Source: Bolinopsis microptera (taxonomy: Eukaryota; Ctenophora; Tentaculata; Lobata; Bolinopsidae). From it: DNA of 64,000 nucleotides. A program made the position numbers and the translations under genes. The notes below the pieces were generated by a model. The model was not told the origin of the DNA. It made no database searches and saw only the letters and a program-made list of their open reading frames with translations. The stretch lies in contig NC_087078.1 of the NCBI RefSeq assembly GCF_026151205.1, forward strand, positions 16,449,118-16,513,117, in the 5' to 3' direction. The first letter of the stretch is position 1; the number at the start of each line of letters is the position of its first letter. Below are positions 2,986 through 63,694 of this stretch, in pieces.

Positions 2986-3166
2986 TGGTAGGCTGGTAAC
3001 ATATAACTAGTCTAGAAAGAGAGAGGTACTAGCAGCAGGCTGGTAACATATAACTAGTCTAGAAAGAGAGAGGTACTAGCAGCAGGCTGGTAACATATAA
3101 CTAGTCTAGAAAGAGAGAGGTACTAGCAGCAGGCTGGTAACATATAACTAGTCTAGAAAGAGAGAG
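2986..3166 (+). repeat. 47-bp minisatellite, left segment
   Basis: About four copies of a 47-bp unit containing GTACTAGCAGCAGGCTGGTA and ACATATAACTAGTCTAGAAA. The array is cut off by the foldback element that follows and resumes after it in the same unit. Confidence 0.95.
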
Positions 3167-24000: not shown

Positions 24001-27000
24001 GTGATGTCGTACCTAGCCAGTGTTAGGTCACGTGAAGTGTATGGGTCCTGGGACAGTGAGGCCGTCAAGCCTCGTCTCACTCTTTACAGAATATTCGAGA
24101 ACTTTAATTGTTACAAAGTGGGTGGGAATAGGTCCTGTACAGATGTCTCAGACTCAGACTTAGACTCAGACTTAGACTCAGACTTAGACTCAGACTTAGA
24201 CTCAGACTCAGACTCTGATCGTTTTAGAATTTTAATCTATTTGACTTGCTCCTCCGGCCTCAAAGGGCTCAAAATATATTTTCTGTTTGAGGACACTAAA
24301 AACCGATTTTGGTACTCATGGTCGATACAATCACAGCCCAACCAACTATACTTGATCAGACCGATTCACCTACATGTGCATACGCCATCTGGGAGCCGTC
24401 AGTTGAGCTTGCTCTCTGACTCGTGGGTTGAAAACATCGTGTACAGTACTTCGTGAGCAGTACAGTACTTCACAACGATAACCCGCCTCCCCAACCAAAT
24501 CTCTTAAATTAATAACATTACACACAGTATGCACACTCACAAATATGGCAGTGAGTATCCCAGCTGCATATAATGCAGTGTACTAATAGCAGCAGATATG
24601 AGATAACAACACGATTGCTTACTGATAGGCGTGCAAGAAATTCCTGAGCTGAATAGGGCCGGTAGCTCAATTGGTAGAGCACCAGGCATGTAACTCGGAG
24701 GTTGGCGGATCATACCCGCCCCGGCACTATGCCGGCCCATGATTTTCCGAATCGCTTACCAGTGGAAATCTAGTCAATTCAAATATCTGCTTGCTTGGTA
24801 CTCATGGTCGATACAATCACAGCCCAACCAACTATACTTGATCAGACCGATTCAATGTTAATATCATCTTTTTCTGGCATTCACAATAAATCATTGGATC
24901 GTCTCCAAACCGTAATTTCGGTTAATTGCCGAATTATCTAATTAATGATCTGTTTCAGGAGGATGAGCACAACATGACAGCAGCAGAGGAGGGAGGGGTG
25001 GTTCCTCTTCCCTTTTCCTGCTCCTACTCCTCCCAATCAAACACACAGCATGTTGTAGCTGTAGCCAATGAGGACGGCAAGGTATTATTTTTAGTTTACA
25101 AATAATCAGGTAAAATAACACCTCATTCATCGTTAAGTCGGAAATAAGTAAAATAACACATCATTCATTGCTAAGTCAGAAATATTCAGGTAAAACTTGC
25201 TTATAATTTATCTCTAGGTCGCAAATTTTCAGGTTAAACCCACTCATTATTCTTCTTTAGGGTGTAAATATTTTAATACAAGTTCTCGTTACAGAGAAGA
25301 CAAAAAATAACGTTTGAGCAAAAGGGTAAGGTGGTAAGATTGGAGTTTAAAAAGGTAATAAACAATATACAATCCCGTTGATCTGAAGATGATTGCAGCT
25401 ACTCCGTTGTTGATGTATTTTGTTTGTCACTTGAGTCTCGACAAATGATACAGATCTACGATAAAGTCACTGACGATTTTTTTAAAGAGTCTACATGGAA
25501 ATTCGTTCCTGAAGTCAATTGAGGCAACTGTGTGTCGACAATTGTGTGTCTCTAACTTTCACTTTCTTGGCGAATGGGCACTACTTTATAGCGCACCCCC
25601 GAATTTAGATTTCCCTTTAAAAGCTGACAATACTAAACTCAACCTCTTCTTGTGTCCGGTCTGGAGAATCATCCTTATCGAGAAAATAACTGCTGCAAAC
25701 AGTGCTCCCAGGCTTGTGATAGTGGAGGACATTGCCATGTACAATTTGTCAGATTTTCCATCCAAAAGATCGCAGGTCTCACTGCGAAGTTCTGTGATAT
25801 ATTCGTATCCCCGATAACCACAGCAAAGGTTCACAATGAAGGATAAGAAAAACGCCAGGATCCCACGGGATGCTTTGTATTGTAGACCAGGAGATTTGAC
25901 TGCTTGTATCCCAGCGAGGATGACAGAGAGGATGACTAGCTCTATGGGGATCCCATAGCATCTCTTACCGTCCTGCCACGGTGATATTTCGTATCTCTCG
26001 TACGCTCTAAGCAGACAGACTCCTGTAAGTATAACCTCCGCGTCAGGCATGTGGGATATAATGGCAGGAGTTGGCCTATCATCTTCTGGTGGCCTCAGAA
26101 AGAAGATCACAGTGACGAAAACAGCCGCCAGAACAAGAATCACAGTCCCCATATAATCATGGGGGAAAGCGGTCTGAGCTCTTACATTACCGAAACATCT
26201 CACCGCTATCAATATAGTTGCGTCAGGAGCACTGGTGTTAAGGATGAGGGAACCAAAGAAAGCAAGGGCTCCTCTAACAGCTTTGTGACCAGGTTCAGTG
26301 TTGTGCACAACCAAGAGCGTCACAATAGTGGAGAAAGCCACGAACGGGATCCAGATGAAGTGGCATTTGTCACCTTGACACACAAATGGTGTGCCACACT
26401 TGTAATACACCACCAAACGGTCGTAAGTTAACTGAGCAAGGAGTCCTGCTAGTATTAGAGGGCTTTGTGGCAAGTACTGGATTATCTTCTTCATCTTGTT
26501 TGGTAGACCTACCAGACTGCACATTTGTCTATCTTGGCTGGTACAGTAGGTAGACCTATTGGATTGAAATTGTTTAAGTTATATTTATCTAATAGAAAAG
26601 ACCGATTTTATGCAGATTGAATATGACTTGTAGTCCTATCTAGGGTAACACTACTTAATTCTGCGTAGTCGGCTGAGTCGACCGAAAGAAGTTTTGGGCA
26701 GGATTGTCTTCGGGGCCGGGATTTGGCCGTTCTGGGAATTTAACTGGCCATGGTAACACTAGAATTATGGCCAATTACTAGGAAAGTTGTAAGTATTATG
26801 TACTGAGTAACGAGTATCCCTTTATTTTGAGATCAAATTATAAATCCGGTCAGAAGGCTATGATTTCCGCTGCAACTGTGTAACAAAAGCAACGATGTAG
26901 TGAACAGCTAGTTCTAGTGCTGGACAGAGGTTGTCGACATAATATAATAACTCATACTGGCATCTCAGCTATTTGAATGCCTCGTCTAATTATGTTGCTC

Positions 27001-30000
27001 ATTATTTTAAATTGGCTTGGACACCACTAAGACTGCACATTTGTTGGTTGGATTGTTGGTAGATTAAAATTCCTAGACTTAAAGAATGGCTAATGATGAT
27101 ATGAACAAAGAAGAGCAGGTTTAAAGACTAATGAAACTAACATTCAAAACAAATAAAAGATAATCGGACTAGGTACTTGTTCTAAACCCAATTACTCTTT
27201 TAAAACAGTCACGTGACGTGATCAAATGTGTGATTTACCTTTATGCCTTATGTATAATGGGACGCTAATAAAATCTTAATTTATAACCTGAAAACTTTGA
27301 ATATCGTTGTAACAAAAATAATGAAATCTATCAAGCAAAAACCTACTGCAAAGTTGCCAAATAAAAAGTCAATGTAACTTTTAGTTAAACTATACTCGTG
27401 GTAAGTTTAAAGTATATATCTGAGCAACGAAGTCTTATAAAGCGGGCAGTATTCTCCATTGTATTTTACTAAACTTATAATAAGTTAACGTAATTAGGCT
27501 AAGTATGGCTTTTAATGCTTTTAGTTAAATTGAAAGTTGCTGATTGACGCTTTAGAAAGTACCAGAGAATACAGCTAGAGGGATCTTCACCTTAACAAAT
27601 TTAGCTCCATTCATTGCTTATCTTTCTATTATTCTACCACAAAAGTAAACTTCTTCTCCAAATCACTCACCACATAACAGAATATTTCGTCAAATGTGGC
27701 AGGCATTTTATGTTGGGTATATTGATCTTAAACTTGTTTTCCCTCTATTAAACTTAAGCTGCTGACCACTTATTGTAACTAATTAGAAAGTAATTACACT
27801 AACTAGCAGGAACCCGTATAATATAACCCTAAACGGTGTCAAGACTCAAGAGACTAAAATAATTATTACCTATTTAATTCGCGTTTTTGACACCACTTGG
27901 GGTTTCAAATTTTGGGCTCTAAAATCACTATTCCTTGTCCAATTTTTTTTTTCATGCTGATTTGGAGGCCATTAAAGCAATTGACCCAGTCAAAAAAGTA
28001 TCAGTTGTATATCTTTTACGGTTTTTGCGGAAAGTCGCGTTAAAGTTGATGCCGAGGTGTCAGTAAAATGGCACGGAAAACTATCGTCTCGCTTTATATA
28101 TAGTAATATTAATTACTGTAATTTGTCAGGTACACCTGATAAACACTGAACGAAGAAAGGGAGGAAGTATAAAGACATGGCAAGCTCACGTTAACGCTGT
28201 GTTTGACATTGCTTGGGTTCCTACCGAGGATAAACTGGTCACCGGATCAGGTATTATTGGGATTATCAGCAGGATTATAGGATTAATATGTAATTAATTT
28301 ATGATTGATATGTGATTAGTACGTGATTAACATGTGATTAATATGTGATTAATATATGTTGTTCAGGCGATCAGACGGCTCAGTTGTGGGATGTTCCCAC
28401 TTCTAAGTGTATATCAGTGTTCAAGGGACACACATGTAGTCTGCGAAGTATCTCCTTCAAGCACAACCACTCTGCTGTGTTCGCTACAGGTTAGTGTCTG
28501 TTCATTGTGCCATTTAATTTATCTTTTAATACCAATAAATCTAATGAACATGTTATATATATAATGGTAATTTACCACTGCCAATTGTCGTCACTTATAC
28601 TAAACATTTGAAGAAGAAGGATGATGAAAATTAACTTTAAATCATAGATTAACAATAATTACACTCTCCACAATGCGCGTCACACTACAGGAGCACGTGA
28701 TGGTAACGTTATGATCTGGGACACGAGGACTCGGCCTCTAAAAGCTGGCCACTACAAACCAGTTAACATTCTACACGCAGTTCACACTACCCTGCCTACT
28801 ACTGGTCCCGCTCAAAACAGACGATCTAACAGGTGTGTGGGAAGCAAACCTTCCTTACTAAAGTCAAAGAGAGGGGGTCGTCGGTCAATTGTTACATTTG
28901 GCAACGATCCCCCACTCCAAAGGCCAAATCAACATATTCTTGATCCCTTTTTAAATGATAATAACTTTATTATACCTTAGGATGTAAGTGTATTGCTTAT
29001 ATATAATGTATAATGTATAATTTATAATGTATAATACACATCCCTTTTTCCAGCTCCCGTAATACAGAAGCACAACAGTCAGTGACCACTGTTTTATTTA
29101 AAGATGAGAACAACCTCTACTCGAGCGGTGCTGCGGACGGTACCATTAAAATGTGGGACATTCGCAGATACTACACTACAGCTAAAGGTGGGCTATTTGG
29201 TATAGTATTTGTTGGGGTCGAGGGAACAAGGTGTGTGGCTAGGAGGGGTAACGATGTGGGTAGATGGGAGGGAGAGGTGAGCTGGCCTCAGGGGGGACAG
29301 AGGAGCTGGCCTCAGGGGGGAGAGGTGAGCTGGCCTCAGGGGGAGAGGGGAGCTGGCCTCAGGGGGGGGGGGGGGAGCTGGCCTCAGGGGGGAGAGGTGA
29401 GCTGGCCTCAGGGGGGAGAGGTGAGCTGGCCTCAGGGGGGGGGGGGGGAGCTGGCCTCAGGGGGGAGAGGGGAGCTGGCCTCAGGGGGGGGGGGGGGGAG
29501 CTGGCCTCAGGGGGGGGGAGGTGGCCTAGGGGGGGGGGGGGGGGGGCTGGCTTCAGGGGGGGGGGAGCTAGCCTCAGGGGGGGGGGGAGCTAGCCTCAGG
29601 GGGGGGGGGAGGTGGCCTAGGGGGGGGGGAGCTGGCCTCAGGGGGGGGGGGGGGAGCTGGCCTCAGGGGGGGGGGGGGAGCTGGCCTCAGGGGGAGAGGT
29701 GAGCTGGCCTCAGGGGGGGGGGGGGGGAGCTGGCCTCAGGGGGGAGAGGGGAGCTGGCCTCAGGGGGGGGGGGAGCTGGCCTCAGGGGGGGAGGGGGGAG
29801 CTGGCCTCAGGGGGGGGGGGGAGCTGGCCTCAGGGGGGGGGACTGGCCTCAGGGGGGGGGAGCTGGCCTCAGGGGAGAGGGGGAGCTGGCCTCAGGGGGG
29901 GGGGGGGCTGGCCTCAGGGGGGGGGGAGCTGGCCTCAGGGGGAGAGGTGAGCTGGCCTCAGGGGGGGGGGGGGAGCTGGCCTCAGGGGGGGGGGGGAGCT

Positions 30001-33000
30001 GGCCTCAGGGGGGGGGGGAGCTGGCTTCAGGGGGGGGGGAGCTGGCCTCAGGGGGGAGAGGTGAGCTGGCCTCAGGGGGGAGGGGGGGCCGGGGGGGGGG
30101 AGCTGGCCTCAGGGGGGAGAGTGAGCTGGCCTCAGGGGGGGGAGCTGGCCTCAGGGGGGAGAGGTGAGCTGGCCTCAGGGGGGGGGGGAGCTGGCCTCAG
30201 GAGGGAGAGGTGAGCTGGCCTCAGGGGGGGGGAGCTAGCCTCAGGGGGGGGGGGGGCTGGCTTCAGGGGGGGGAGCTAGCCTCAGGGGGGAGAGGGGAGC
30301 TGGCCTCAGGGGGAGAGGTGAGCTGGCCTCAGAATAACCACGTTTGTTTTAAAACCAGAGTTGTTCTTTCTCTCTCCCGTGATGGAACTCACCACTCCTA
30401 TCCCGCTGTCAGGTGTCCTGCAGCCGAGGCACGTGTACCCGTACGTGGGATCAGCGTCCCGGAAACACGGGATATCAGCCCTGTCCCTGACGAGTTGTGG
30501 GTCCCGACTCTTCTCGAGTTGTACTGACGATAACATCTACATGTACAACACTCACCTGGACACCAGGTTAGAGTCTTGATATTGTGATTATATTTTTACA
30601 TTCCATAATTTCGATTGAAATGATGCCATTTGCAAAATTCCAATAACGATTTTAGTTTTATTCAATTGCAATCATTCCTAAAAATTTAACCTTTTTTATT
30701 TAAATCAGTATGAAGACTAAAATTACAATTACAATTACAATTACAATTACAATTACAATTACAATTACAATTACAATTACAATTACAATAAATTACAGGG
30801 ACCCCGTGGCAGTGTTCTCAGGCCACACAATCTCCACATTCTACGTTAAAAGCTGCGTGACACGTGACAACGAGTTCCTGATTAGTGGATCTAGTTCTCA
30901 TTCTCTGTTCGTGTGGGACATAAAACACCCGCTCCTACCACCCGTCAAACTGGACGGACATTCTGGTCAGTTTACTTACAATTACTTAGTTTAAATAGTT
31001 ATTAAGTTAGTTAGTTTACTAACACTAACTACTTTAGTTAGGAAACAATAATGTTAATAGGGGGCAGCTCAACAGAACGTCTCGAGAACTGGAGGAAGCA
31101 CTTCTCTGGATTACTTGGACAGCCACCCACAGTCCCTGACAATAATATTCCGATCAGGAATATACACCCTCCACTGAATATAGAGGATGGCCCGTTCACC
31201 ATTGAGGAACTACGTCTTGCCAAAAAGCAGATAGTAGAAGGTAAAGCTTATGGTGATGATGGTATCTCACCTGAAGTGATGAAGAGGGTGGACATTGATG
31301 ACGTCATCCTGAAGTTCTGCAACGATGCACTATGTGATGGTCTCATGCCCGATCAATGGAAGCTCAGTAATATTGTTCCTGTGCCAAAGAAAGGGGACCT
31401 CACTAAGACTGACAACTACAGAGGAATATCTCTGACATCGATAGTCAGTAAAACTCTGAACAAAATGTTGCTGAACAGGATGAAGCCAAGTCTTGAGGAA
31501 GTTTTAAGGGACAACCAGAATGGCTTTAGACCTGGGCGCTCTACAACATCGCACATTCTTGCTCTACGAAGAATTATGGAGGGTGCTAGAGCCAAGAACC
31601 TAAAGGCCACCATGGTTTTCATTGATTTCAAGAAGGCGTTCGATAGTGTGCATAGAGGCTTGCTCATGAAGATACTGAAAGCATATGGCATACCAGAAGC
31701 CATAGTGCGGCTCATTGAGGGTATATATACAAGCACAAAGGCTAAAGTAGTTACAGCTGATGGTATAACAGAGATTTTTGATATCCTGGCTGGAGTACTG
31801 CAAGGAGACACTCTTGCCCCGTACTTGTTCATTATCGTGATTGACTATATCATGACAGTGACTATAGACGATGATGACTCGGACTCTGGGTTCACTCTCA
31901 GGCCTGCACGGAGTAGAAGGATTGGTGCCGAGAAGATCGCAGACGTCGAGTTTGCAGATGATGTTGCCCTTATCACTGATACCATTGAAGGGGCAAAACT
32001 ACTCCTGGACAGGCTTGAGAAAGCAGCACTGAGTGTTGGGCTAGCCATGAACGACACTAAAACTAAGTTCATGACTCTGAACATGACAGAGGAGGCGAGT
32101 AGTCTCAATAGTTGTGGTGGAAACCAGCTGGAAAAGGTGACAGACTTTGTTTACCTTGGAGCATGGATAGCAACAACTGAGAGGGACCTGCGGGTCAGAA
32201 AAGCTAAGGCTTGGGCAGCCTGCCACAAGTTAAAGAAGATGTGGAAGTCTGACCTTAGAAGAGGACTAAAGATCCGTCTATTTGTTGCTACTGTGGAGTC
32301 AATACTTCTTTATGGTTCTGAAACGTGGACGTTGACAGAGCATTTGAAGAAACGCATTGATGGCTGCTACACCAGAATGCTAAGGATGGCACTAAATGTG
32401 GATTGGAAGCAGCGCAAAACCAATAAAGAAGTCTATGGCAACCTACCAAGAGCAACCATGAAGATCCAAGAGCGCAGGATGCGACTAGCAGGCCATATCC
32501 ACCGGCACCCAGAACTAGTCGCAAACCGCTTGCTACTCTGGGAACCAACTCATGGGGTGCGGAGTAGGGGGAGACCAGCCATGACTTATGTCGATAGCCT
32601 ACGAGCTGACACGGGTCTCAACGACACTGGAGAAATGGGCGGACTTATGGCGGATAGAGTTTTATGGAGACAGCGCATCAATACTCGGACGCCGAAGCCG
32701 CCTTAAGTCAAGTCAATAATGTTACTGCCGGTTTGAATAGAACAGTAACACATTTATTCAAACTATATCTATTCCGAACCGACTTGGTAACCTCCTTCCT
32801 TTTCACCAGTTACTTCACAACTTCCTGGTTAACCCTGTATTCTAATTGCTAACAGTGTCCTCTCGCCCCAGGAGAAGTAACGAGCGTAGCAAGCAGTTCA
32901 AGTGACCTGGGTCAGATAGTATCCTGTTCAGACGACAATACAGTCAGGATCTGGAGACTCAACGATCAGACCTCGCTTTGTAAGGACGGTTTCAAGTGTG

Positions 33001-36000: not shown

Positions 36001-39000
36001 GAACTTCTTAAAGTCCTCCGGGACTTTGTTACACCCTTGGGCGCACCACGTGGAGACTTCGTAACTGGGATGGAAACGAGCTCAGTGCTTTTGTGATTGA
36101 TAACTAAAAATGAATAACCATAACGAGTAGTGGTGCTCAATATTCTAGGCTTTTTGAATTCTCCACTCATTGACAGTGTCACATACCACTGTCACATACC
36201 ACTGCACTGTCACATACCTGAAGATGTCAGGAGTGAACTTGCCGTCCTTACACACCACGATGACCTCTCCCTGCTGACCTCTGGCCGTGGCAGAGTACTG
36301 ATCTATAGTCTCCAGATCCACTCCTTTCACCTGTAGAGTGTAGATGTTAACAAGATACTGCTACCCTCAATTATATATATGTAATTGTAAGGAAACCTAG
36401 ATGAACTACATTTACTAACACAACTACTATTTCAAGTACCACACTTACAGTTACACAGACATACCAAACATACCAAACATACCTAACATACATCTTACAA
36501 AACCTAATTGTCCATTACCGTTCTGATGTTGTTGCTCCATCCCATGGATATAATATCCTGCCTGCACTTCAAGATATAGCTCCCTTCAATCCAGGTCTTG
36601 TCCAGATCCAACATACTTCCGTCATTATTCCGGATGAAGTTAGCAGCTGTACGGAGACTGTCTGTAGGACAAGCTTTCTCTTCAACTGCAGATTTTAGTT
36701 GTTACAGAAACGTTCTACTTCTTTACTCTTTATGAAGTGATTGTGTTTTGTGAGGAGTCTAGAAAACCGGGGGGATAGTTATTTATTACTTCAACCATGG
36801 ATGGGAATATAGTCATTGTCCGGATCAGATTATTGGGGATTTAAATATCGTTGAGCAAAAACTTCCGTTGTATCATGTGTGCCCATTGAACATGTAACTG
36901 TTCTTTATGATTTACCTGTTGGTGTAAACAAGTAGACTAGCAAAGCAAGGAAACGTAAACCACACATACTTAAACTAATTACACTGATAAACTCTACACT
37001 GACTATGTAGAAGTCTCCCTGCTATTAGTAGGTCACGTGACTCCTGGCTGTCCGTGAGTTTTATACTATTTCCCATTTTGTGGGGTCTGGTACCTGGCTG
37101 AGATCTGTTCAGGTTATATTCCAAGTTAATAAAACTAACCTGCTTATAAAACTAACCTGCTTATAAAACTAACCTGCTTATAAAACTAACCTGCTTATAA
37201 AACTAACCTGCTTATAAAACTAACCTGCTTATAAAACTAACCTATTTATTTCAGGACGACCAAAATAACGAGATTAACACCACGAACAGATAAAAGTACC
37301 CCAAAAAGACCGGATAATAATAACCATGGTAACGATACAACTCTCACCCCTTCACGAGCTACTCCTAACTCCAAATTTACTCCTACTCCTAACAGACAAG
37401 GTAAGGAATGTACTCAGTTCTTTCAAGAAAAACTTCCAGTTTAAAAATGAAAATTACAATGACATGAATGAGAACGTAACAATAAAAATGTATTTCACTT
37501 CATGCGGCTATTGTGATTTATTGGTGATGCTGACAAGGAATTTGTTCAGATAAGAGTCGTCTCCGAGCAATTGTTGAGGATGAAGAAGCACCCTCTTCAA
37601 GTCAAGATCTCAGCAGCAGTTCTAAGACAATTGGTGAGGAGAGGGCTAATTTCACTTAAACGCTAGATTTAAACTTAGTTATATTAGTTATCTTACTTAT
37701 ACACAACATTTAAACTTATTTACATTACTTGCGATATTTGATTTAGAGTAGACAGAACATTGTTCATTGATATAAGTAATTTTGTCTTCATGTCAATCAC
37801 TTGTGGCGTACAACCCTAAACGAATTTTTTTGAATTAATCAATATGTTAATTGATTCGATAGCTAATTAATAAATAATTAATTACAGATAAGACCCCAGT
37901 GAGGTCCCCTGTTCGCCAGTCCCCGAGGAACCTCATTCCTAGTTCCAGCTCTACAGCACAACAGAAAACACCAGGAAAGATCTCAGCTTACTTCAGATCA
38001 AACGGTCTGCTATCTTCTGAGAAAAGAAAGACCGATCAGTCTCCTCTAAGACAATCACCTCGACTGAACAAGACCAAAGTAACAAACTTGAAGATTCAGT
38101 GTATCTTGACAATTAATTAGTTCTGATTTCGTCATGATGATTTCTTAAAGCATTAGAAAAATATCTAACATTTGCTGAAAGTGAATGCATTTTCACTTCA
38201 GGTTTCAAGAGGTGGAAGACGAATCAGCACTCTTGAACTAGAATCTGCAAACAAGCTCATGACTTGGAAGACGGTCGAGAGTAAACATGTTGACGAGCTA
38301 TCGAGCTCACCTAAAGTACAAAACGTCCCCAGCCCTAAGAAAAAACCGAAGAGAAAAGAAAAAACCAACAAAAACTCAACTGAACTCATCGCAACCCCAA
38401 CTAAAAGTAAACCTGAGGATGATCTAATGTCTACATCAGGGCCAAAACAACAAATAAAAAGTCCGGTAAAGATAAGTTCTCCTTGCAGCAGCCGAACCGA
38501 TCAAGACTTATTACCTGATCTGAAGGGAACAAGTGTGGCAACTCAGAGCGGTTCCACGGTGGGATGCAGTGTTGGAACACAGACCTTATCTCCACTGGAA
38601 TGTACCAGCTTATGCAAGAGCTGCTGTAGAAACTTCCCTCCCCTCTACTGTGCCCCCAAATCTCACACACCCGCAAGTACCGTGGGAGTGGGGGGCAGTG
38701 TGTGTACTCCATCTACTGTTGCCACAGATCTGACCCCCCGCAGCTGCTCCAACTCTTCAATACCTCGTCCCAAGAGAATACACGCTCAGTCAGACATACC
38801 AACCACGCCCACTAAGGGTCACGCTCAGGTCTTAAAACAAACTTCTCCTGAAAATAAGGAGAACTCCGAACAAAGAGTTAGGAGAAAGTTTACAAAAACA
38901 GGAACCCCAATCCACCGCGGTAACTGTCGGTGTAAGTTCTGTGTCTCATCAGCGACTGAGTTTTCCGAGCTCTCAAACTCGCCCATCCTTGACATGCCAT

Positions 39001-44046: not shown

Positions 44047-45265
44047 CTAGCTCTTCATGTAAAAGTCAATAGCAGCAGAGAAGGCAGCAAAGCCAGCACA
44101 ACCCAAACAACCTGGCACGACACCAGCTCTCAGGCCCATCCCCCCGCCCACCAAACAGCCACTATACAAACTGTTCTTCAGATCACTCCGTGCACGGTAC
44201 GACTCTATCACACACTCGGAACCAGACAGTGCTAGTCCAAGGAATGCAAAACTTTTGCCGTACGATTTACTGCGGGACAACATTTCTTTGTAAACATCCC
44301 TCGCTGTTTGAGGCTTGTCCGATATAGATGTCATATTGGGGTCTATAGCTGCCGTGAAAAGTCCGAAAAATACCCCCATTGCACCTCCGATCACGGTTGC
44401 CATGCCACCCTTGAATGCGCATGATTCTGCTATCTGTTCTATCTTTTTCTGAAAAATTCAAATCAAGTTACACTCAGAGCAAAAAATTAAATGTAATTTA
44501 ATGGTTGAAAGAGTAATCGTTAAATGTTATTTAATTAATAAAAATGCACAATTAGAAAACTGCCACTATACATAATAATATCGGGCCTGCCTAAAATATT
44601 CTCACCTTTAAATTTAAATATTTAATAAAATAAATACAAAATATATCTCACCTCAGCAGGGTTGATACTGATAGGTTTACTAAATATATCTCACCTCAGC
44701 AGGGTTGATACTGATAGGTTTACTAAATATATCTCACCTCAGCAGGGTTGATACTGATAGGTTTACTAAATATATCTCACCTCAGCAGGGTTGATACTGA
44801 TAGGTTTACTAAATATATCTCACCTCAGCAGGGTTGATACTGATAGGTTTACTAAATATATCTCACCTCAGCAGGGTTGATACTGATAGGTTTACTAAAT
44901 ATATCTCACCTCAGCAGGGTTGATACTGATAGGTTTACTAAGTATATCTCACCTCAGCAGGGTTGATACTGATAGGTTAACTAAGTATATCTCACCTCAG
45001 CAGGGTTGATACTGATAGGTTTACTAAGTATATCTCACCTCAGCAGGGTTGATACTGATAGGTTTACTAAATATATCTCACCTCAGCAGGGTTGATACTG
45101 ATAGGTTTACTAAATATATCTCACCTCAGCAGGGTTGATACTGATAGGTTTACTAAGTAGTCCAGGTTTACTAAGACTCTCCGGTGACCCAACTCTAGCC
45201 TTCATTCGGTCTATCAGGTACACAGGCGAGACTTCAGACCAATCATCATCCTTTTCTTTAGACAT
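44047..45265 (-). CDS. TIMM22: Mitochondrial inner-membrane translocase subunit Tim22
   Basis: Channel-forming subunit of the TIM22 complex, which inserts carrier proteins into the mitochondrial inner membrane (family knowledge). Two exons: 45125-45265 (47 codons) and 44047-44448; total 180 aa against 194 in human. The second exon begins KKIEQIAESCAFKGG and continues GGAMGVFFGLFTAAID, SYGKSFAFLGLALSGSECV, IESYRARSDLKNSLYSGCLV and GCAGFAAFSAAIDFY, all close to Tim22. The donor after INPAE (GTGAGA, just below 45125) is repeated in a 43-bp minisatellite filling the start of the intron. Only this first donor keeps the frame: reading on gives VRYT and a stop. Confidence 0.92.
44647..45162 (-). repeat. 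43-bp minisatellite of the TIMM22 exon 1 end
   Basis: Twelve near-identical copies, spaced exactly 43 bp (44647, 44690 up to 45120). On the coding strand each holds the last codons of exon 1 (KPISINPAE) plus the GTGAGATAT donor and a short intron piece. The copy nearest the ATG is the working exon end; the other eleven are intronic. Confidence 0.95.
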
Positions 45266-45955
45266 ACACTATATCGAACTAAGCTACAATAGGTGAATTA
45301 TTAGAGGTGTTGTTATAAGACGGACGTTGTTATTTTAAAATGGTTAGAGTTAAAGTTCGATGGTTTTGAGTTTGATATCGAAGATTTCAAATGTTTTTTA
45401 GAATTCAAATATCAAAGATAGATTGATAAAGGATTCCCCACGGTACATGGCCATGGTAGATGTCTATTTTCTTGAAATAAATTAATATTTGAGACAGTAA
45501 AAGTCATTGATAACATGAAATAAATTATATTATAATTAGAAACATAATTAATCATTAAAATGTCACCAATATTCATACGTTTGACGATGTATATTCTGAT
45601 TTAAAAATTGAGTTAATCATAACATTTCGAAGTGTCTGAAACCACTAAAAATCGGGATGCATCGTATATAATACAGTCAAATTCATACAGTTAATCATAA
45701 CCTCCATAATCCACACACAACACTCTGAACTCTCTATCAATAACATGCCACTATTAATAGTTTAAAATTATTCCCATCTAACTTATATTCGGCTAAATGT
45801 GGTTACTTTCGCTGTACAGTGTACATGGTCGCGTGTTACATGGGTCCTTCAGTTCAACATGATGAAATGTCTGAGATCGGGGTTATCCTCTGACTTCTTC
45901 ACAAGCTGTAATAAGTTACACCATCAAGAGTGAAAAGGGTTGAAAACCAAACGGT
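45266..45955. other. Intergenic region, TIMM22 promoter side
   Basis: 5' flank of TIMM22 and 3' flank of the first carotenoid oxygenase gene. AT-rich, with nothing else identified. Confidence 0.5.
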
Positions 45956-47632
45956 TCATATTCCATCAAACCACAGCCCATGAAGCGTAAAAGGTACAAT
46001 AACAGGAGTGTCCACAATCGCAACCACCTCTAGATTCTTAGCATTCCAAATGTAAAGTGAGGTGGAGTTATCTGTGGAATCTAGGACAGGTGACATGACA
46101 ACTCCGTCATCTTCGTCAGTAGAATCTGGTCGGGGAACAAAAATCGGCTCAACAGGAAACTTGTTCTTCTCTTCCCATCCAATACTTTCTTCTTTACAAA
46201 GGTCCAGTTTTATAATCCCCATAGCACCTCCTAGATCCCGATTAGAGACCTGCAAGTAAGTGAAACAGTAGGGGGCTCCTCTAAAGTTAGGGTTGAATGT
46301 GGGAAATTCAATTCCTGAATATTTTGGAGCATTCCACATGACGGGGAAATCCTTGTCTCTCCCCTCACCAGTCACAGTGTTCAGTATAAATCGTGTGATA
46401 CGAGCCCTGTCGTTGATCCTTATCTCTTCCTCACTTTGTTTCCAATTTGGGTCTTTTATCTTGTCGATATTGAGCATATCGTATACAGTTTCCTCATGAA
46501 AACTTACTGGGTAAACTCTAGTTGGAAAGTCAAGGACAATCTCCAGCTCTCCCTTGCTATTCTGCTGTTCGAATGAGTTTATAATGTGCTGAGCTTCGTA
46601 AGCGGTGAACTTAAACGACAAAGTTTCCTTCGTTTCCAGGGATAAGATGTCAAAGACTGTTGGTCTAGTAGCATCCCAATAAATGTTAGCTCCGATGGAT
46701 ATGGGATCTTTACGGTCAAGGAACATGTTAAATCTTGGTAATATCACATAATGCCCTGTTACACCAAATGAGTGTACAATTCTAAGGTCATCTGAAGGAA
46801 CAGAGATATATCCCAATGATTTAGTCACAATCTCTCCAGCCGAATTAGTTTCATACTCGTAGAAATGATAGGCCGGAGAGTTTTTACCACTAAAAATGCC
46901 CATGTCAAAAGGAAGGTGTATCTTGTAGTTGATACTAGCATCAGTTGTTGGATGTCTGTTAAAATGGCTTGCTGAAAGGAACTCCATTTCAAATAGACTC
47001 TTGTCCCAGGAAGGAGGAACATATTCCCGCAAGAAGTCCAATGTAATGTAGTCATTATCAATGTACCGAGGTTGTTCTGTTGTTGTTGTCACACCTAACG
47101 AGCCAAGGTCCCAAACTGCCACATTGGTGTTGTCATTGGGCGGATCATAGAACAGAATTTTGAGCTTTTCGGTAAGCGGTGGATGTATCTCACCCATGTA
47201 TTGGATCGGAGGTAGTTCCTGGGCAGCAATAGTTCTGTTATACACATCACTCCTCACAAATTTAGAAGATACCCTCACTTTCCCTGTCTCTTTGTTAAAC
47301 GACCATCTGTGAAGCTTTGCCAGCCCGTCAATGAGATTATTAACCCTTCTTTCACCACCAAGAGAGTAAAGTGCAGGTCCCACCCGGTACAAGGACCCAT
47401 GAAGATATTCTGGCAGGGATCCAAACTTTACTGTCACCTCCACATCAGTAACTTCATTAAGCTGGTTAGAATATAGAGCCAGAGGAAGCTCCCAGCCTTT
47501 GAAGTCAAACTGAGCGTATTTAGAGCGGCAGCTGCTTTCTGGCGAATCTGCTGAGCATGTCTCCTCACTTTTTGTCAATGAAGCAAGACAAACGAGGAGG
47601 AGATGAAACATAACCATACTACACTGTAACAC
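45956..47632 (-). CDS. Carotenoid oxygenase (BCO/RPE65 family), secreted-type, copy 1
   Basis: Fe(II)-dependent enzyme family that cleaves carotenoids or apocarotenoids, or isomerises retinyl esters. Intronless ORF, 558 aa. The four iron-binding histidines can be placed: H227 (NRHPTTD), H287 (IVHSFG), H349 (EAQHIINSFE) and H551 (VPFTLHGLW). Other family motifs are LHGSLYRVGPALY, DGLAKLHRW and AMGIIKLDL. The N-terminus MVMFHLLLVCLASLTKS is a typical signal peptide, followed by a cysteine-containing stretch (CSADSPESSC) not seen in the cytosolic or mitochondrial vertebrate enzymes; NRT and NST sequons fit secretion. The substrate is unknown. Tandem with the next gene, same strand, 0.7 kb apart. 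Confidence 0.92.
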   Translation of the reverse strand: MLQCSMVMFHLLLVCLASLTKSEETCSADSPESSCRSKYAQFDFKGWELPLALYSNQLNEVTDVEVTVKFGSLPEYLHGSLYRVGPALYSLGGERRVNNLIDGLAKLHRWSFNKETGKVRVSSKFVRSDVYNRTIAAQELPPIQYMGEIHPPLTEKLKILFYDPPNDNTNVAVWDLGSLGVTTTTEQPRYIDNDYITLDFLREYVPPSWDKSLFEMEFLSASHFNRHPTTDASINYKIHLPFDMGIFSGKNSPAYHFYEYETNSAGEIVTKSLGYISVPSDDLRIVHSFGVTGHYVILPRFNMFLDRKDPISIGANIYWDATRPTVFDILSLETKETLSFKFTAYEAQHIINSFEQQNSKGELEIVLDFPTRVYPVSFHEETVYDMLNIDKIKDPNWKQSEEEIRINDRARITRFILNTVTGEGRDKDFPVMWNAPKYSGIEFPTFNPNFRGAPYCFTYLQVSNRDLGGAMGIIKLDLCKEESIGWEEKNKFPVEPIFVPRPDSTDEDDGVVMSPVLDSTDNSTSLYIWNAKNLEVVAIVDTPVIVPFTLHGLWFDGI

Positions 47633-48321
47633 ATGTTAAAATTCCAATAAGATCAAAAGTTGACATCTGGCTCCAGATAAAACCAGTTCTCATGCTAATT
47701 ATGATTTGATTGAAGACAAAAATGTTCAAGAAAGGGTGATGATTTGACTCTTAATAGTCATCAATCAAAAATCAGTCATTCTAAATTTAAGAACAAATAA
47801 CAAAAGTATAAAAAGAGAAACAAAACTGAAAAATATGATTAAGTACTTGAAATTTTAACATGCACATTTCGAAAAATTTCATATTATTCAAGATCAAAGC
47901 GGGTCAAACTTTGTATCAAGAACACACTTTCGTGAAACACCATTTCGTTGATTAATTTACAGCAAATCGAGCAAAATAACGAGTAACAATGAGAATAATT
48001 GTCTGAAATTATATTTTCTGGATCTGTTAGCGAATTATACAAAATTAAATCCTTAAAAATCATAATAAATCCCATTACATAGATTCCATTTCATAGAAAA
48101 TCAGTAAACTGCATCAAAAGATGATAAAATATTTCAACTAATTTATTCATTTACAACATTATACCATACAGCACGAATAAGTTTGATGTGTGCATGATTA
48201 TTTGGTACACAGATTATGGTACTGTATGGTATATCGAAGTAATTTGTCTATTTTGTTAAGATCCTGTTCAAATTTCTGAATCAAAGAACAAGTTTGATAC
48301 TGTAATTTGAAATTTTCAAGT
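47633..48321. other. Spacer between the two carotenoid oxygenase genes
   Basis: AT-rich, no supported ORF; it must contain the promoter of copy 1 and the polyadenylation site of copy 2. Confidence 0.5.
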
Positions 48322-50064
48322 TCATACCCCATTGATCCAAACACCATGTAGAGTAAAAGGTACCGTAACTGGAGTGTTCAAAATCGTCAGAACTTCCAGA
48401 TTCTTTGCATCCCAAATGTACAGTGCAGTTGAGTTAGTGGTTGAGTCAAGAACAGGGGACATGATGATTCCATCATCTTCATCAGTTGCACCAGGACGAG
48501 CAGCAAAAACAGGTTCAACAGGGAATTTATTTACTTCCTGCCAGCCAATACTTTTTTCCTTGCACATGTCGACCTTCATGATTCCCATTGCATTATGTGC
48601 ATCTTGGTTCCATGTTTGAAGGTAAACATAGCAATATGGCAGTCCCCTGTAAGCATCATTGATGTATGGAAACTCCACTTGCAGATTTAAGGGTGACCAC
48701 ATTTGGGGGTAGTCATATATGTGACCAGTTCCAGTGTCCATGTTGAGAATAAATCGACGGATCCTAAATGTTGTGTAGGCTTCCCAGTGTTCTTTGTATT
48801 GAAAGTTGGGATCAGTCAACGTTTCAATGTTGAGTAGTTCGAATATGTTCTTGTCAGGAACATTATCAACGCTATCCAAAGTAGGGTAGTCAACAACAAT
48901 CTCAAGTTCATTTTTATCATTGTATCGTTCATATGAATTGAAAATATGTTGAGCCTCATGTGCTTTGAAAGTAAATTGCTTTCGGCTTCCATCTTTCAGA
49001 GAAACAACGTCCATAAAGACTGGCTTGGATGAGCTAAACTTTATATTTTGTCCAAGTTCTACAGGGTCATTGAAATCGACATACAAGCTGAAGCGAGGTA
49101 AAACAATGAAGTTTTCTGTAGCCCCAAGAGTGTGAACAACCCTGAAATCCCCTTTTTCAATCGGTACTCTTCCCACAAATTTAGCATCAATTTGTCCTTC
49201 TTCATTTTCTTTGTATCTGTATAGATGATAAGCAGGACCTTCATTTTTGCTGATAAACCCTTTATCTAGAGGTATGACAATCTTATAGTTGATACTATCA
49301 CCAGAAGAAGGATGCCTCCAAAAGTGACTGGCTGACAAAAACTCTTGCTCAAACATTCCAGTGTTATCAGATTTTGCACTATATTTCTTTTGAAATTCCA
49401 AAGACTTAAAGTCCACATCGATGTACACATGGCTTTCAGCTGTAATGGTGACCCCAGACTTTCCTAACTCCCAGGCAGCAATGTTGTTGTTATCAGGCAA
49501 GCTGTCATAAAACATGATTTGAATCTTTTCCATAGTAGTAGCTGGAGGGTGCATTTGCCCAAGATGGCGAATGGCAACAAGCTCTTCATTTTCTTTTGTT
49601 CTGTTGTAAATACTGCTTTTCAGAAAGCTTGTAGAAAAAGTTGCCTCACCATTATTAAATGACCATCTGCAAACTTTGCTTAATGCATCGACCATATTAT
49701 TAACCCTTCTGTTTCCAAGTTCGTAAAGCCCTGGCCCAACTCTGTAAAGTGTTCCATCAAGCCAGGATGGGATATTCCCAGAAATCACTCCCAAATTGGT
49801 ATTTGCAAGTTCCACAAGGTTTGATTCAAATAAAGCATTTGGCATAATCCAATCATCAGCATTATCAGAAAATTTTGCATTATCACTTTCTGTTGGACAA
49901 CCACTTGCATCACATGTTCCTCCGTTATCAGCAGATGATATGGTTTGAGTAACAGACGATATAAAAAGACATGATAGGAGTACAGTTGTTGTAAGAATCC
50001 ACAGATTAGGATAACAGCTCATCATACCAATACCCTCTCTACACAGTCTTTTAACAAAATCCAC
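48322..50064 (-). CDS. Carotenoid oxygenase (BCO/RPE65 family), secreted-type, copy 2
   Basis: Paralogue of the preceding gene; intronless, 580 aa. Iron ligands H251 (WRHPSSGD), H311 (VVHTLG), H373 (EAQHIFNSYE) and H573 (VPFTLHGVW) are all present. Shared sequences include LYRVGPGLYELG, NKFPVEPVF and TDEDDGIIMSPVLDST. The N-terminus has basic residues, then a hydrophobic segment (LWILTTTVLLSCLFISS) and a cysteine pair (CDASGC): a signal peptide or type II anchor. NRT and NST sequons are conserved with copy 1. Divergence over the whole length, with conserved catalytic sites, indicates an old duplication with both copies under selection. Substrate unknown. Confidence 0.92.
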   Translation of the reverse strand: MDFVKRLCREGIGMMSCYPNLWILTTTVLLSCLFISSVTQTISSADNGGTCDASGCPTESDNAKFSDNADDWIMPNALFESNLVELANTNLGVISGNIPSWLDGTLYRVGPGLYELGNRRVNNMVDALSKVCRWSFNNGEATFSTSFLKSSIYNRTKENEELVAIRHLGQMHPPATTMEKIQIMFYDSLPDNNNIAAWELGKSGVTITAESHVYIDVDFKSLEFQKKYSAKSDNTGMFEQEFLSASHFWRHPSSGDSINYKIVIPLDKGFISKNEGPAYHLYRYKENEEGQIDAKFVGRVPIEKGDFRVVHTLGATENFIVLPRFSLYVDFNDPVELGQNIKFSSSKPVFMDVVSLKDGSRKQFTFKAHEAQHIFNSYERYNDKNELEIVVDYPTLDSVDNVPDKNIFELLNIETLTDPNFQYKEHWEAYTTFRIRRFILNMDTGTGHIYDYPQMWSPLNLQVEFPYINDAYRGLPYCYVYLQTWNQDAHNAMGIMKVDMCKEKSIGWQEVNKFPVEPVFAARPGATDEDDGIIMSPVLDSTTNSTALYIWDAKNLEVLTILNTPVTVPFTLHGVWINGV

Positions 50065-52208
50065 CCTAAATCAGAATTGGAATTAGAATTTCGATCAAAT
50101 CTAAAAAGTGATTAACAAAATGAAATTAACTGATACAGTATAGTAAAACCCTGGTTTAATGCGGACTTTGGCGAAAGAGAAGACCCGTGGTAAAATATGG
50201 TTTGTTGTAAATCAGGGGTTTTGGAGTCCTAAATTGGTCAGCAATGAGTGGATACTGGATAATTAAGGCCTGCATTCCATAAAAACGATATCTTTATTTT
50301 TGTATTATATTGTAAACCATACCAAGACCTAAATATCAATATTGTACTAGTATGCTCAGATCAGATCACATATTCTCCTGTAGCACAAACCAATCCTTCT
50401 CAAACACAATCGTGCCCTATCACATAAAAAATGCTGTCCACTATCACAGTAGCAAAGGCATTGAATACAAATTCTAATAAGTAACTTTTTGAAACTCTTT
50501 GCACAAGAACATAATTACGTAATTCGAGACGCAGTTATGAGCACAAGCTAACGAGCTAATAGCATTATGCACTGGCTATTAATTGAGTGGAAATTTCGGC
50601 TCTTATAATAAGGAAAACAACATTTTTAGGAAAACAAAATTTAAATTTGATTGCCATTACAATGAATAATAATATCATAATAAATATAAGTAAACATCCG
50701 ATGATAAATTTGTTAGAACCAGTATAGCACAAGATGCTCTACTAACAAATAAAAAGAACTCACAGGTTCATATCATGGTCCTTCGAACGTGCATACATAG
50801 CTTAGGCCACATCTATCTATAGATATATTGTATTTGATAAATAATTAATGTTGGTGGGGAAATATTTATTACATATTTTTTCACATAGTGCGATGATATT
50901 TTGTAAACATGTGTGATGATGTGATGTCATAAATTTTACTTTACTTTACTTTAGCTTTATCTAGCTATTATAATTCTACGTCGTAGTAGAATATCATATT
51001 ATAAACACTCTACATCATAGGCTGTTCATTCACAAAGAGAATTGCATGGATTTCTTTTGCTGTGGCAGTAAATTTAGTAGGGCCTACAATTTTTTTGGAG
51101 AGCAAAATGGGTAAATTTGCAACAATGCACTGCCACTAAAACATAATGCCCAATTAATAATTTGGTGAATGACTTGGAGGACTTCGCCGTGCCGCGCAAA
51201 CTAGCATTCTTGCTTCGCATCGAAGCATTCTTGCTTCGCATCAAAGAATTTTTGCTTCGCATCGTTTCACATAGCCATGTGCCTACGCGTACTGCGTGAC
51301 GCGCTTGTTTCTTCGGCGGTCGCGCGCTACTGCAAGTGAGAGGGCTCTGGTTAGAGCAATCGCATCGTCAATCGTTGAGCTCTGCTTCGCAGAACAACGA
51401 TCTCGATGAAGTTGACACGTCAATCAAGTGAATGACTATTTCCTATTTGTCCTGATAGATAGAGCGTGCTAAATTACTTTACATTCGATCTTCCTTACTG
51501 GGCCGCGCTCAGCCTGTCATTCCGCGCCGCCGAATTTCTATTATGAACTTGATAGCCTGAGGTCCCCAGGTAAGATCTTCCCACGATGGGACCACTGGAA
51601 GCGCATTGCACTACAGATTTTTTCGCGCGCTGAGTGTTGCCACGCAAATATTTCATCATGATTCCTATTGACCACCAGCCCTATCTTTACTTAGCATATC
51701 ACTAGTTCATGTTTCAGTTTTAAAGAGAATCCTTTGTTCTGCATCCCAGTATAAATTTGATTAGTTAACTTTTTTCATAAAGTCGACTATTAAATGTGCG
51801 CAAAGTAACCAATTTTCGACAGACCACTGCAAGTGAAGCTTACATAGTAGGCTCCCAGAAAACTTTGATTCACGATGTCAATCCTTCGCAGCTCGGTGAG
51901 GCACAGTGGTGCATCTCGCCGATCTACCGAGAAGCATTATTTGATGCGCGCGCTACCCAGTAGTGCATCGCGCTACAAAGAAAACTTAGAAGATATTAGA
52001 CATCATCTCAACTGTATGTGTGCAAATTTTCAGGATGCTACTTTGTGATCGTTTTGAGATAGAGATGATCAAAGACGATGTTTCTGTGTAATTTTAATAC
52101 ATTCGCGTGCAATTTTTAACGCCAATTCTACCAATATAAGAATTGAAACTATTATTAATTTGATCGATTAGTGCATTGTAGCACAATATAATAACACATA
52201 GTATCAAA
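50065..52208. repeat. Gene-poor region with a dispersed-repeat copy
   Basis: About 51490-51980 is related to 9285-10350 (CGCTCAGCCTGTCATTCCGC, CTGAGGTCCCCAGGTAAGAT, then a GATGCGCGCGCTACCCAGTA block). About 51200-51262 holds three copies of a 21-bp unit with TTCTTGCTTCGCATCGAAGC, which makes a RSKNASM repeat frame. No gene seen in the rest. Confidence 0.55.
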
Positions 52209-58041: not shown

Positions 58042-59417
58042 CTTTTCGTGTTAAAAGCGATTTCTCAACGGTTATCACCTCTCTAGATGATTCTTAAAAC
58101 ATTTGGACTTCATTGCATTTTTGAAATAAATGCAATGAGGGCGTTTTCGGCCACACCCTTTTTCAGGGTTTCGCGGTCACTCGAATTTTTCTATTTCAGC
58201 CCAGGAAGGTCTTAAAGACTATTTCGATACACCAAAATGTGCCTAATAGCCACATTTATATACAACTTATGAAGCAACATATACCTTAAAATGCTTCGTT
58301 TCGGAAATATGGCCGAAAAACGGTTTTTGGCTTGACGCAGTTCATAATTTCCATGATTTTTGGCATTTCCGCCTAGGAAGGTCGTAGAGACTATTCTGAT
58401 ACACTAAAATGTACATAATGGCCACATTTATATACAACTTATGAAGCAACATATACCCTAAAAGGCTTATTTTCGGAAATGTGGCTGAAAAACGGATTTT
58501 TGCCGAGCGAACAATGACAATATTCACAAATGGGCTATTGGACTGTTAACTAGAAAGGTCTTAAAGACTCATGAGCAACACAGCATTTGTCACAAGATGT
58601 AAGATGACTCACTTTGTGTCCAGAAACACCTACAAAAATTGGAGAATGATCTACTTTATTGGGCATCTCTCTTAATGGGCCAGGCCAGCAGCATATTTGT
58701 GTCTTACGAAATGGCAATTTTTCAAAATTACGGTTTCTTTAGTAAAGGTCAATGGGTCAGTTGCTAACAGCAAATTGTTCGCAATTGCCGACTCATGCAC
58801 ATCATATACTCAAAAACGCTCACTTTAGGAGTCATTAGTAAATAACTACTACATGATTTGTGAAAACTCCAACAATTTTTCCTTGGTACCAATTTAAATA
58901 AAATGTGTGACGTGCCAGACCAAAATTCAACTTCAAACTTTTTATTTATTCATGCCATGAAACCATAATATATGTACTAAGAATACCGGACCTAAAATAA
59001 ATCGGCACTGGATCCGGGTCAGATTGTTGCTTGACCGCTGACCAGTACCCCACTTTATAATTATGATTGATTTCGCTGCCTCGACCAATATTGGTCTGTA
59101 ATCCCTGGATTGAGATCTGTTGGCCGCAGTTTAATTTAGCTAATTTCCTATAATACCGCAGTGGTCTGGTTCCCACTTCAGAATGACCCCATATTATTTT
59201 TTTCAGTCGCATAGATTTTCCCATCGTATGATAATGTGTGTCATTCCCTCGTTTTTAATCAAGTGGTGACTGGCTATTTCTTCTGTTATTACAGCTGTGA
59301 GCTGCCTCGAGATCTTATCTGGGGCATGGGCACAAATACTAGAACATTAGAACTGTAATTCTAGAACTTCAGATTAAGGTTACTTGGCAGAATAGCATTA
59401 GCAGGGTTCGAGATTTG
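58013..59417 (+). repeat. Repeat copy A
   Basis: 58013-59184 is nearly identical in direct orientation to copy C (62321-63505). On to about 59417 it matches copy B in inverted orientation. There is no intact protein; the 61-aa frame in each copy (58342-58527 here) is conserved only because the copies are recent. Confidence 0.9.
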
Positions 59418-62320: not shown

Positions 62321-63505
62321 TAGTCAGAGACGAAACGGAATCTCGTTAGCTTTTCGTGTTAAAAGCGATTTCTCAACGGTTATCACCTCTCTAGATGATT
62401 CTTAAAACATTTGGACTTCATTGCATTTTTGAAATAAATGCAATGAGGGCGTTTTCGGCCACACCCTTTTTCAGGGTTTCGCGGTCACTCGAATTTTTCT
62501 ATTTCAGCCCAGGAAGGTCTTAAAGACTATTTCGATACACCAAAATGTGCCTAATAGCCACATTTATATACAACTTATGAAGCAACATATACCTTAAAAT
62601 GCTTCGTTTCGGAAATATGGCCGAAAAAACGGTTTTTGGCTTGACGCAGTTCATAATTTCCATGATTTTTGGCATTTCCGCCTAGGAAGGTCGTAGAGAC
62701 TATTCTGATACACTAAAATGTACATAATGGCCACATTTATATACAACTTATGAAGCAACATATACCCTAAAAGGCTTATTTTCGGAAATGTGGCTGAAAA
62801 ACGGATTTTTGCCGAGCGAACAATGACAATATTCACAAATGGGCTATTGGAATGTTAACTAGAAAGGTCTTAAAGACTCATGAGCAACACAGCATTTGTC
62901 ACAAGATGTAAGATGACTCACTTTGTGTCCAGAAACACCTACAAAAATTGGAGAATGATCTACTTTATTGGGCATCTCTCTTAATGGGCCAGGCCAGCAG
63001 CATATTTGGGTCTTACGAAATGGCAATTTTTCAAAATTACGGTTTCTTTAGTAAAGGTCAATGGGTCAGTTGCTAACAGCAAATTGTTCGCAATTGCCGA
63101 CTCATGCACATCATATACTCAAAAACGCTCACTTTAGGAGTCATTAATAAATAAGTTTAACTACTAGTACTGCATGATTTGTGAAAACTCCAACAATTTT
63201 TCCTTGGTACCAATTTAAATAAAATGTGTGACGTGCCAGACCAAAATTCAACTTCAAACTTTTTATTTATTCATGCCATGAAACCATAATATATGTACTA
63301 AGAATACCGGACCTAAAATAAATCGGCACTGGATCCGGGTCAGATTGTTGCTTGACCGCTGACCAGTACCCCACTTTATAATTATGATTGATTTCGCTGC
63401 CTCGACCAATATTGGTCTGTAATCCCTGGATTGAGATCTGTTGGCCGCAGTTTAATTTAGCTAATTTCCTATAATACCGCAGTGGTCTGGTTCCCACTTC
63501 AGAAT
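62321..63505 (+). repeat. Repeat copy C
   Basis: Same orientation as A and almost identical. With B it forms a near-perfect palindrome. It lies about 190 bp upstream of the gag-like ORF, so it could be, or contain, the LTR or 5' region of that element; no clear TG...CA ends or primer-binding site were found. Confidence 0.85.
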
Positions 63506-63694
63506 TGTTAGTATTCTCACTGAGCTGCGAGGGCCACATCGCTGCAGTGTTTCTATTTCTATTATGGATTGTATTTGTATTTATATTCATTTATTTATTT
63601 ATTAAGATGACTAACCATCTATCTCCATAGGAGTGGTGGGGCTGTTTTTACACTACAATTACTGCCTATCATTGCACCGTCTAACCAATAAAAC

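Follow-up and report, generated by a model that had tools for sequence, protein, structure and literature searches.

How the spliceosome chooses among equal donors that lie close together is an old question, and it has been studied mostly with built constructs. In human IFI6 (also G1P3 or 6-16), the repeat unit measures 12 nt, and a splice-donor minisatellite was reportedly described in this gene by Turri, Cuin and Porter in 1995 (NAR 23:1854). According to PMC4526556, the 130-aa form of human IFI6 predominates, and two downstream repeat units provide further donors. Dual-specific AGGT splice sites, forming a tandem array in the human polyubiquitin gene UBC, are described in PMC10809524. Furthermore, PMC4974935 presents an intron of a potato RdRp gene gained by tandem duplication across an intron–exon border, and PMC4039745 reports that a minisatellite is over-represented close to sites of alternative splicing in C. 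elegans. Within the openly licensed literature, as represented by titles and abstract openings, no report of donor-spanning minisatellites recurring in a ctenophore genome was found.

The present study concerns the TIM22 gene of Bolinopsis microptera, located in a stretch of 64,000 nucleotides analysed as a whole (hereafter, the window), in which the donor of exon 1 is repeated in tandem. In keeping with a ctenophore source, an ionotropic glutamate receptor ORF found the ML032222a receptor, from Mnemiopsis, as its top PDB match. The nearest precedent is the donor minisatellite of human IFI6, followed by the dual-specific AGGT arrays of UBC. As in IFI6, where according to PMC4526556 the main product stems from the first donor, a minisatellite lies at an exon end and carries a donor in each unit. 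However, later donors lengthen the protein in IFI6, whereas in TIM22, with its 43-nt unit, they lead to a stop after 51 aa, and here a single genome shows the pattern in several genes. With UBC (PMC10809524), the locus shares AGGT at constant spacing (12 of 12 units in TIM22, 43 nt apart); in contrast, the units of UBC are coding monomers kept or removed in frame, while those of TIM22 are intronic, would shut the reading frame, and carry at position −3 a base that is poor for an acceptor. In an array of the UBC type, the intron length would be expected to be a multiple of the unit, which the 676-nt intron predicted for TIM22 is not. The potato RdRp case resembles TIM22 in that a border-crossing tandem duplication copies splice signals, but that duplication lies on the acceptor side (PMC4974935), whereas the one in TIM22 lies on the donor side. 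Moreover, TIM22 is predicted to have gained no new intron, its anatomy fitting a lengthened old intron with the old acceptor kept. New here are the recurrence within one genome, the out-of-frame units and the involvement of an import gene for which no second copy was found. TIM22 taken alone is a variant of the IFI6 kind, and of greater interest is that the pattern recurs across the genome. This genome appears to provide conserved genes with natural series of near-identical donors, from 7 to more than 40 in number, for which the protein tells which choice is right.

Structure of the TIM22 Gene and Its Donor Array

The features of the locus, together with the arrays discussed below, are compiled in Table 1. 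Exon 1 ends at 45125 with ...AACCCTGCTGAG, followed directly by GTGAGA, and the 43-bp unit (TAGTAAACCTATCAGTATCAACCCTGCTGAGGTGAGATATATT) is composed of 31 nt of the exon 1 end and 12 nt of the intron. The program TRF called the array at 44635–45156 with a period of 43, 12.1 copies, 98% matches and 0% indels, and GAG|GTGAGA was present in all twelve units, the last exon-side bases being 45125, 45082 and so on to 44652 at a spacing of 43 nt. The units differ by one T/C change common to copies 3–5 and one A/T change in copy 5, neither of which affects a donor. Beyond the array, intron 1 continues to ttgaatttttcag, and exon 2 begins at 44448. On the intron side, donor 12 of the array is followed by a further strong site, the 13th, and so is not itself the most intron-proximal one.

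Table 1. Features of the TIM22 locus (positions in the window) and tandem arrays fetched from elsewhere in the genome.
Feature	Position or locus	Strand	Description
TIM22 exon 1, coding part	45125..45265	minus	ATG at 45265, 141 nt, phase 0 at end; frame open between ATG and donor 1
Array, 12 copies of 43-bp unit	44640..45155	minus	TRF and copy-by-copy listing
Donor 1, GAG|GTGAGA	45119..45127	minus	per-donor translation: sole donor yielding full-length Tim22
Donor 12, final array donor	44646..44654	minus	copy-by-copy listing
13th donor-like site AAG|GTGAGA, outside array	44600..44608	minus	46 nt beyond donor 12, exon-side base 44606
Predicted TIM22 intron 1	44449..45124	minus	676 nt if donor 1 is used; bounded by donor 1 and by the acceptor tttttcag preceding 44448
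TIM22 exon 2, Tim17/Tim22/Tim23 domain and stop codon	44047..44448	minus	Pfam PF02466, joined protein
ADAM disintegrin gene	L005		straddles coding-exon donor
MRPL49-like gene	L006 with L027		straddles coding-exon donor
ABHD17-like gene	L021		straddles coding-exon donor
RNASEH1	L024 (C2:10654300-10656500)		straddles coding-exon donor
Unnamed exon ...LMIALFTQ	L009	opposite to search word	straddles coding-exon donor
Coiled-coil exon	L035		straddles coding-exon donor
Putative coding exon	L036		likely donor-straddling array
Array at intron start	L008	opposite	begins at first intron base
Array inside intron	L007	opposite	begins ~13 nt inside intron
Array before acceptor	L025	opposite	branch point and pyrimidine stretch repeated before acceptor
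Array at acceptor	L037		abuts acceptor

Chance would hardly ever produce a perfect array with 12 copies such as this one, although tandem arrays as such are common here, since they make up about 11% of 174 kb of sampled sequence. A genome search with the 873-bp stretch 44458–45330, performed with a method that skips simple repeats, returned the stretch itself as the sole match.

Joining exon 1 from donor 1 to exon 2 yields a protein of 180 aa, which scored 78.6 bits against PF02466 (cut-off 32.7). Its top relatives in the PDB were Tim22 chains (7cgp, 9wv1 and 6lo8), human Tim22 in 7cgp being the best (E 3.6e-39), with an alignment running from residue 23 on. These similarities point to the Tim22 branch of PF02466 rather than to Tim17 or Tim23. 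A search of the genome for a second TIM22 gene with PF02466 gave three matches and no such gene, the matches being TIM22 itself, one whose best solved relative was Tim17, and a third (L001) that we take to be Tim23-like. Upstream, TIM22 is adjoined on the minus strand by two genes of the RPE65 family (45956–47635 and 48322–50070), each reading as a single frame without interruption (559 and 582 aa).

A preliminary description of this DNA had named the gene TIM22, identified its first exon and reported twelve tandem 43-bp copies with equal donors, all of which was borne out by the PDB matches, the open frame leading to donor 1 with its 180-aa joined product, and the TRF and donor counts given above. 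Its span for the array, 44647–45265, covers exon 1 and most of the array, which itself ends at 44640.

Predicted Outcome of Each Donor Choice in TIM22

Translation of the product expected from each donor gave the 180-aa Tim22 for donor 1 and one identical 51-aa product (...NPAEVRYI) for the other eleven of the twelve donors. The codons of the first intron piece are GTG AGA TAT ATT TAG, and because this TAG stands in frame, every later-donor product ends early, whatever the period of the array. It had been proposed that only the first donor keeps the frame. Donor 1 alone indeed gives Tim22, but donors 4, 7 and 10 preserve the frame as well, and their products end at this same TAG; that 43 is not a multiple of three, offered earlier as one reason, is thus incidental. 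Under the 50-nt rule for nonsense-mediated decay, the mRNA from donor 2 would escape decay, its stop lying 28 nt before the joint, and those from donors 3–12 would be targets.

Donors 1–11 have an identical unit on both sides, and donor 1 therefore carries no local mark. Masking of the inner donors by RNA folding was considered and rejected: the fold of 44600–45265 had a z-score of −0.06, and 9 of 20 shuffled sequences folded equally well or better. The earlier statement that the cell must choose the outermost donor follows from the anatomy; its use in RNA, and the rule behind the choice, are what we infer from it.

Recurrence of Border-Straddling Arrays in the Genome

The array had been presented as a single oddity, but other genes of this genome show matching anatomy. 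The window and 11 arbitrary 10-kb stretches (174 kb in total, G+C 38.6%) were sampled for units of at least 10 bp, and 95 arrays covering the share of sequence mentioned above were recorded. Three donor octamers were looked for genome-wide as triple tandem matches, and the loci were read by eye among the matches listed (7, 8 and 6 loci). Fifteen distinct units were fetched with their flanks, the six loci left out either sharing their unit with a fetched locus (four) or consisting of 9-bp units (two). A coding-exon donor was clearly straddled by 6 of the 15 fetched arrays, a proportion that refers to loci chosen by donor words and is not a rate per junction. One further likely case and four arrays at intron edges are also listed in Table 1, and the other four of the 15 showed no exon edge (L022, L023, L026 and L038).

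Exons were called by reading open frames, supplemented for some genes by family matches. The matches to Disintegrin (ADAM) and RNase_H (RNASEH1) were clear, the ABHD17-like exons matched alpha/beta hydrolase families, and the MRPL49-like gene matched Img2 with 32.4 bits, below the cut-off of 34.4; the names ABHD17 and MRPL49 and the label coiled-coil are our own reading. The family search gave no match for the exons of L009 and L034. Unit lengths in seven donor arrays were 43, 44, 44, 35/37/39, 36/35, 32 and 43 nt, mostly not multiples of three, which fits later donors being seldom used.

Reversed words served as controls. For the reversed word TGAATGGA, one array with 11 matches was found in the whole genome, and this lone array (L034, C13:2434600-2437900) straddles a donor on the opposite strand, with the exon ending ...GRDPWTNK|GTAAGAG. 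For the reversed word AGAGTGGA, six loci were found among the matches listed, and none of the three fetched had a donor-spanning edge; L032 and L033 of this control were viewed without the far array end, and the loci left out of the fetch were one with a unit already fetched and two heptamer arrays. Raw counts of triple-donor matches (1260 for AGGTAAGT vs. 11 for its reversal, 1857 vs. 31 for AGGTATGT and 662 vs. 955 for AGGTGAGA) were discarded as a measure of enrichment, since matches overlap and long arrays dominate, and loci were counted instead. Counted by eye among the matches listed, these amounted to 7 loci in 29 Mb for AGGTAAGT, 6 in 17 Mb for AGGTATGT, 8 in 50 Mb for AGGTGAGA, 6 in 50 Mb for AGAGTGGA and 16 in about 190 Mb for the acceptor word TTTTCAGG; TGAATGGA had its one locus in 265 Mb. 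Occurrences of the same words in the 174-kb sample numbered 4, 8, 22 (12 of them being the TIM22 array), 1, 19 and 2, respectively. Set against these word counts, the locus densities indicate that donor-word arrays are not explained by the commonness of donor words, although the contrast between AGGTGAGA and AGAGTGGA is small. Within the 174 kb, donor words occurred in the units of 8 of the 95 arrays, compared to a permuted-word mean of 1.7 (P 0.003), and reversed words in 5 of 95, which makes for a weak difference.

Position of the Working Copy in Other Genes

For six genes with the next exon in hand, the product was translated for each of 121 pattern-matched donors. Donor 1 was open in all six, and later donors were open in RNASEH1 alone. 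It was the only open donor in TIM22 (12 donors), the MRPL49-like gene (42), the ADAM gene (8), the ABHD17-like gene (24) and the coiled-coil gene (20), while in RNASEH1 donors 1–3 of 15 were open; counting by unit chaining instead gave 43 donors for the MRPL49-like gene, 7 for ADAM and 19 for RNASEH1. The alignment of RNASEH1 with human Ribonuclease H1 runs without a gap across the donor-1 joint, and the disintegrin domain of the ADAM gene is likewise continuous across its donor-1 joint. The RNASEH1 unit is 36 nt long (some copies 35), and use of donor 2 or 3 would, as in IFI6, yield a longer protein without a frame change.

For the acceptor side, 7 of the 16 loci found with TTTTCAGG were retrieved. 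L044 straddles an acceptor, its upstream exon (...SISKKDE) seemingly ending in phase 0, and with that phase the last of four in-array acceptors alone is open. L042 is likewise an acceptor-straddling array; of its four acceptors, the final two share an open downstream frame, and the last copy, presumably the one used, gives a long open exon. The array of L040 ends 17 nt before the acceptor, and the other four fetched loci gave no clear picture (L039, L041, L043 and L045). On its opposite strand, the 15-bp array of L045 (598–794) encodes a repeated VGPEN peptide that would extend an open frame, and it may be a coding repeat.

Across seven arrays, all 264 of 264 GT bases were intact, compared to 83 of 5037 other bases varying, at a nominal P of 0.035 for copies that are not independent of one another. 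Only units of modal length were scored, and unit chaining slightly favours intact starts; the TIM22 chain ran one 46-nt step onto the 13th site, and that of L034 followed 25 of about 41 units. The TIM22 array has too few changes to judge constraint on its donors alone.

Origin of the Array and Choice of the Donor

We consider it probable that the array is an expanded donor-straddling duplication, that the gene works through its exon-proximal donor and that the other eleven are passive or, to a minor extent, leaky. A tandem duplication across the donor of TIM22 exon 1 would have grown into the 12-copy minisatellite within intron 1, and splicing would take the exon-proximal donor, being the first transcribed and 5'-most, so that TIM22 stays functional. 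The remaining donors would be passive duplicates or, if leaky at all, little used, their mRNAs meeting an early stop. Exon definition is the likely rule behind this: the shortest exon would win and, for a first exon, the cap would pair with the nearest donor, captured early by U1, possibly with help from the order of transcription. Where an array spans a donor, the same rule would select the first copy, and where it spans an acceptor, the last; the two acceptor-side arrays L044 and L042 fit this mirror form. With so many arrays in the genome, some border-straddling cases are expected without any special drive. Most likely, exon-border duplications are tolerated, nearly silent and able to grow into minisatellites because the exon-proximal copy is spliced; near silence of a splice-site duplication, as suggested here, is a step needed to model how introns are gained and how minisatellites grow. 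Several observations count against this reading: in some classic experiments with duplicated donors, the intron-proximal site was reportedly favoured, donor 1 of TIM22 carries no local mark, the next-to-last acceptor of L042 is also open in the same downstream frame, and the intact GT bases hint that inner donors may be not wholly passive.

The intact GT bases would suit a reading in which the inner donors compete for U1 and give a sizeable share of early-stop mRNA, array length thereby setting TIM22 output as a copy-number rheostat, in line with the tuning of productive splicing put forward in the preliminary description. Twelve identical strong donors, of which every inner one leads to an early end, are in keeping with it, as is the prediction that donors 3–12 would feed decay with donor 2 escaping. 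However, matching anatomy in unrelated genes suits tolerance better than the regulation of one gene, and we regard such a rheostat as rather unlikely. Less likely still is a self-erasing, dual-specific AG|GT array, in which an inner donor would first be joined to exon 2 and the retained units, a multiple of 43 nt with GT and AG at their ends, would be removed in a second splice, in any order, to give the same mRNA. The AGGT core is indeed present in every unit, and removal of any number of whole units would leave the donor-1 product. But a G at position −3 of an acceptor is poor by consensus, and G is the base found there in TIM22; the −3 bases of the seven arrays (G, G, A, T, C, C and A) include three pyrimidines in seven, about what donors alone would be expected to show. 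An intron of a single unit would measure merely 43 nt, and the predicted 676-nt intron is no multiple of 43 (676/43 = 15.7).

The copy number, or even the whole array, might also be an assembly artefact or a rare allele in the reference. According to PMC10232365, the B. microptera genome, presumably the assembly used here, was built with wtdbg and purged of haplotigs, so that the copy number may be off and one haplotype is visible. In contrast, the same source gives a PacBio coverage of more than 70x with Illumina polishing, the array of about 520 bp is short for long reads, and like anatomy with different units is present at several other loci, which together make an artefact very improbable. 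Libraries of the PacBio CLR, HiFi or Iso-Seq type are listed there for the species covered, including B. microptera, with their allocation unstated.

Extending the preferred reading of exon-proximal splicing, one could imagine a genome-wide class of border-straddling minisatellites, perhaps hundreds, with 7 to more than 40 intact donors, a strict exon-proximal rule on both sides and residual use of inner copies as a fast-evolving dial on gene output. This broader view is doubtful. The figure of hundreds genome-wide is a rough extrapolation from loci chosen by donor words.

Other Repeats and Genes in the Window

Further structures were noted in the window. In a sushi-domain gene (36174–36218, minus strand), the exon ends at 36218 with the donor CAG|GTATGTGACA, and three copies of GTATGTGACA lie at 0, +18 and +31 nt, the second of which would add six amino acids in frame, while the third would shift the frame. 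At 37129–37254 on the plus strand, in a gene that we take to be DTL-like, seven 17-bp copies carrying CTAAC, probably a branch point, stop 11 nt short of the acceptor AG at 37254. An imperfect array of 38–41-bp units with CAGGTAAAA and TAAGTCAG (25082–25195, plus strand) starts about 19 nt past the apparent exon end at 25081 (...GAGGACGGCAAG).

One 47-bp unit forms two arrays of 3.8 and 27.3 copies (2990–3167 and 4514–5810), about 1.3 kb apart, and a G-rich array of about 1 kb (GAGCTGGCCTCAGGGGGG..., 29279–30332) keeps long frames open on the plus strand. A retroelement reverse-transcriptase frame of 554 aa, uninterrupted, lies at 31042–32706 on the plus strand (PF00078, 3.5e-32). Finally, two minus-strand ORFs (58946–59254 and 63267–63590) have about 80 identical residues in common (SEVGTRPLRYYRKLAKLNCGQQ...), and the underlying DNA looks repeated.
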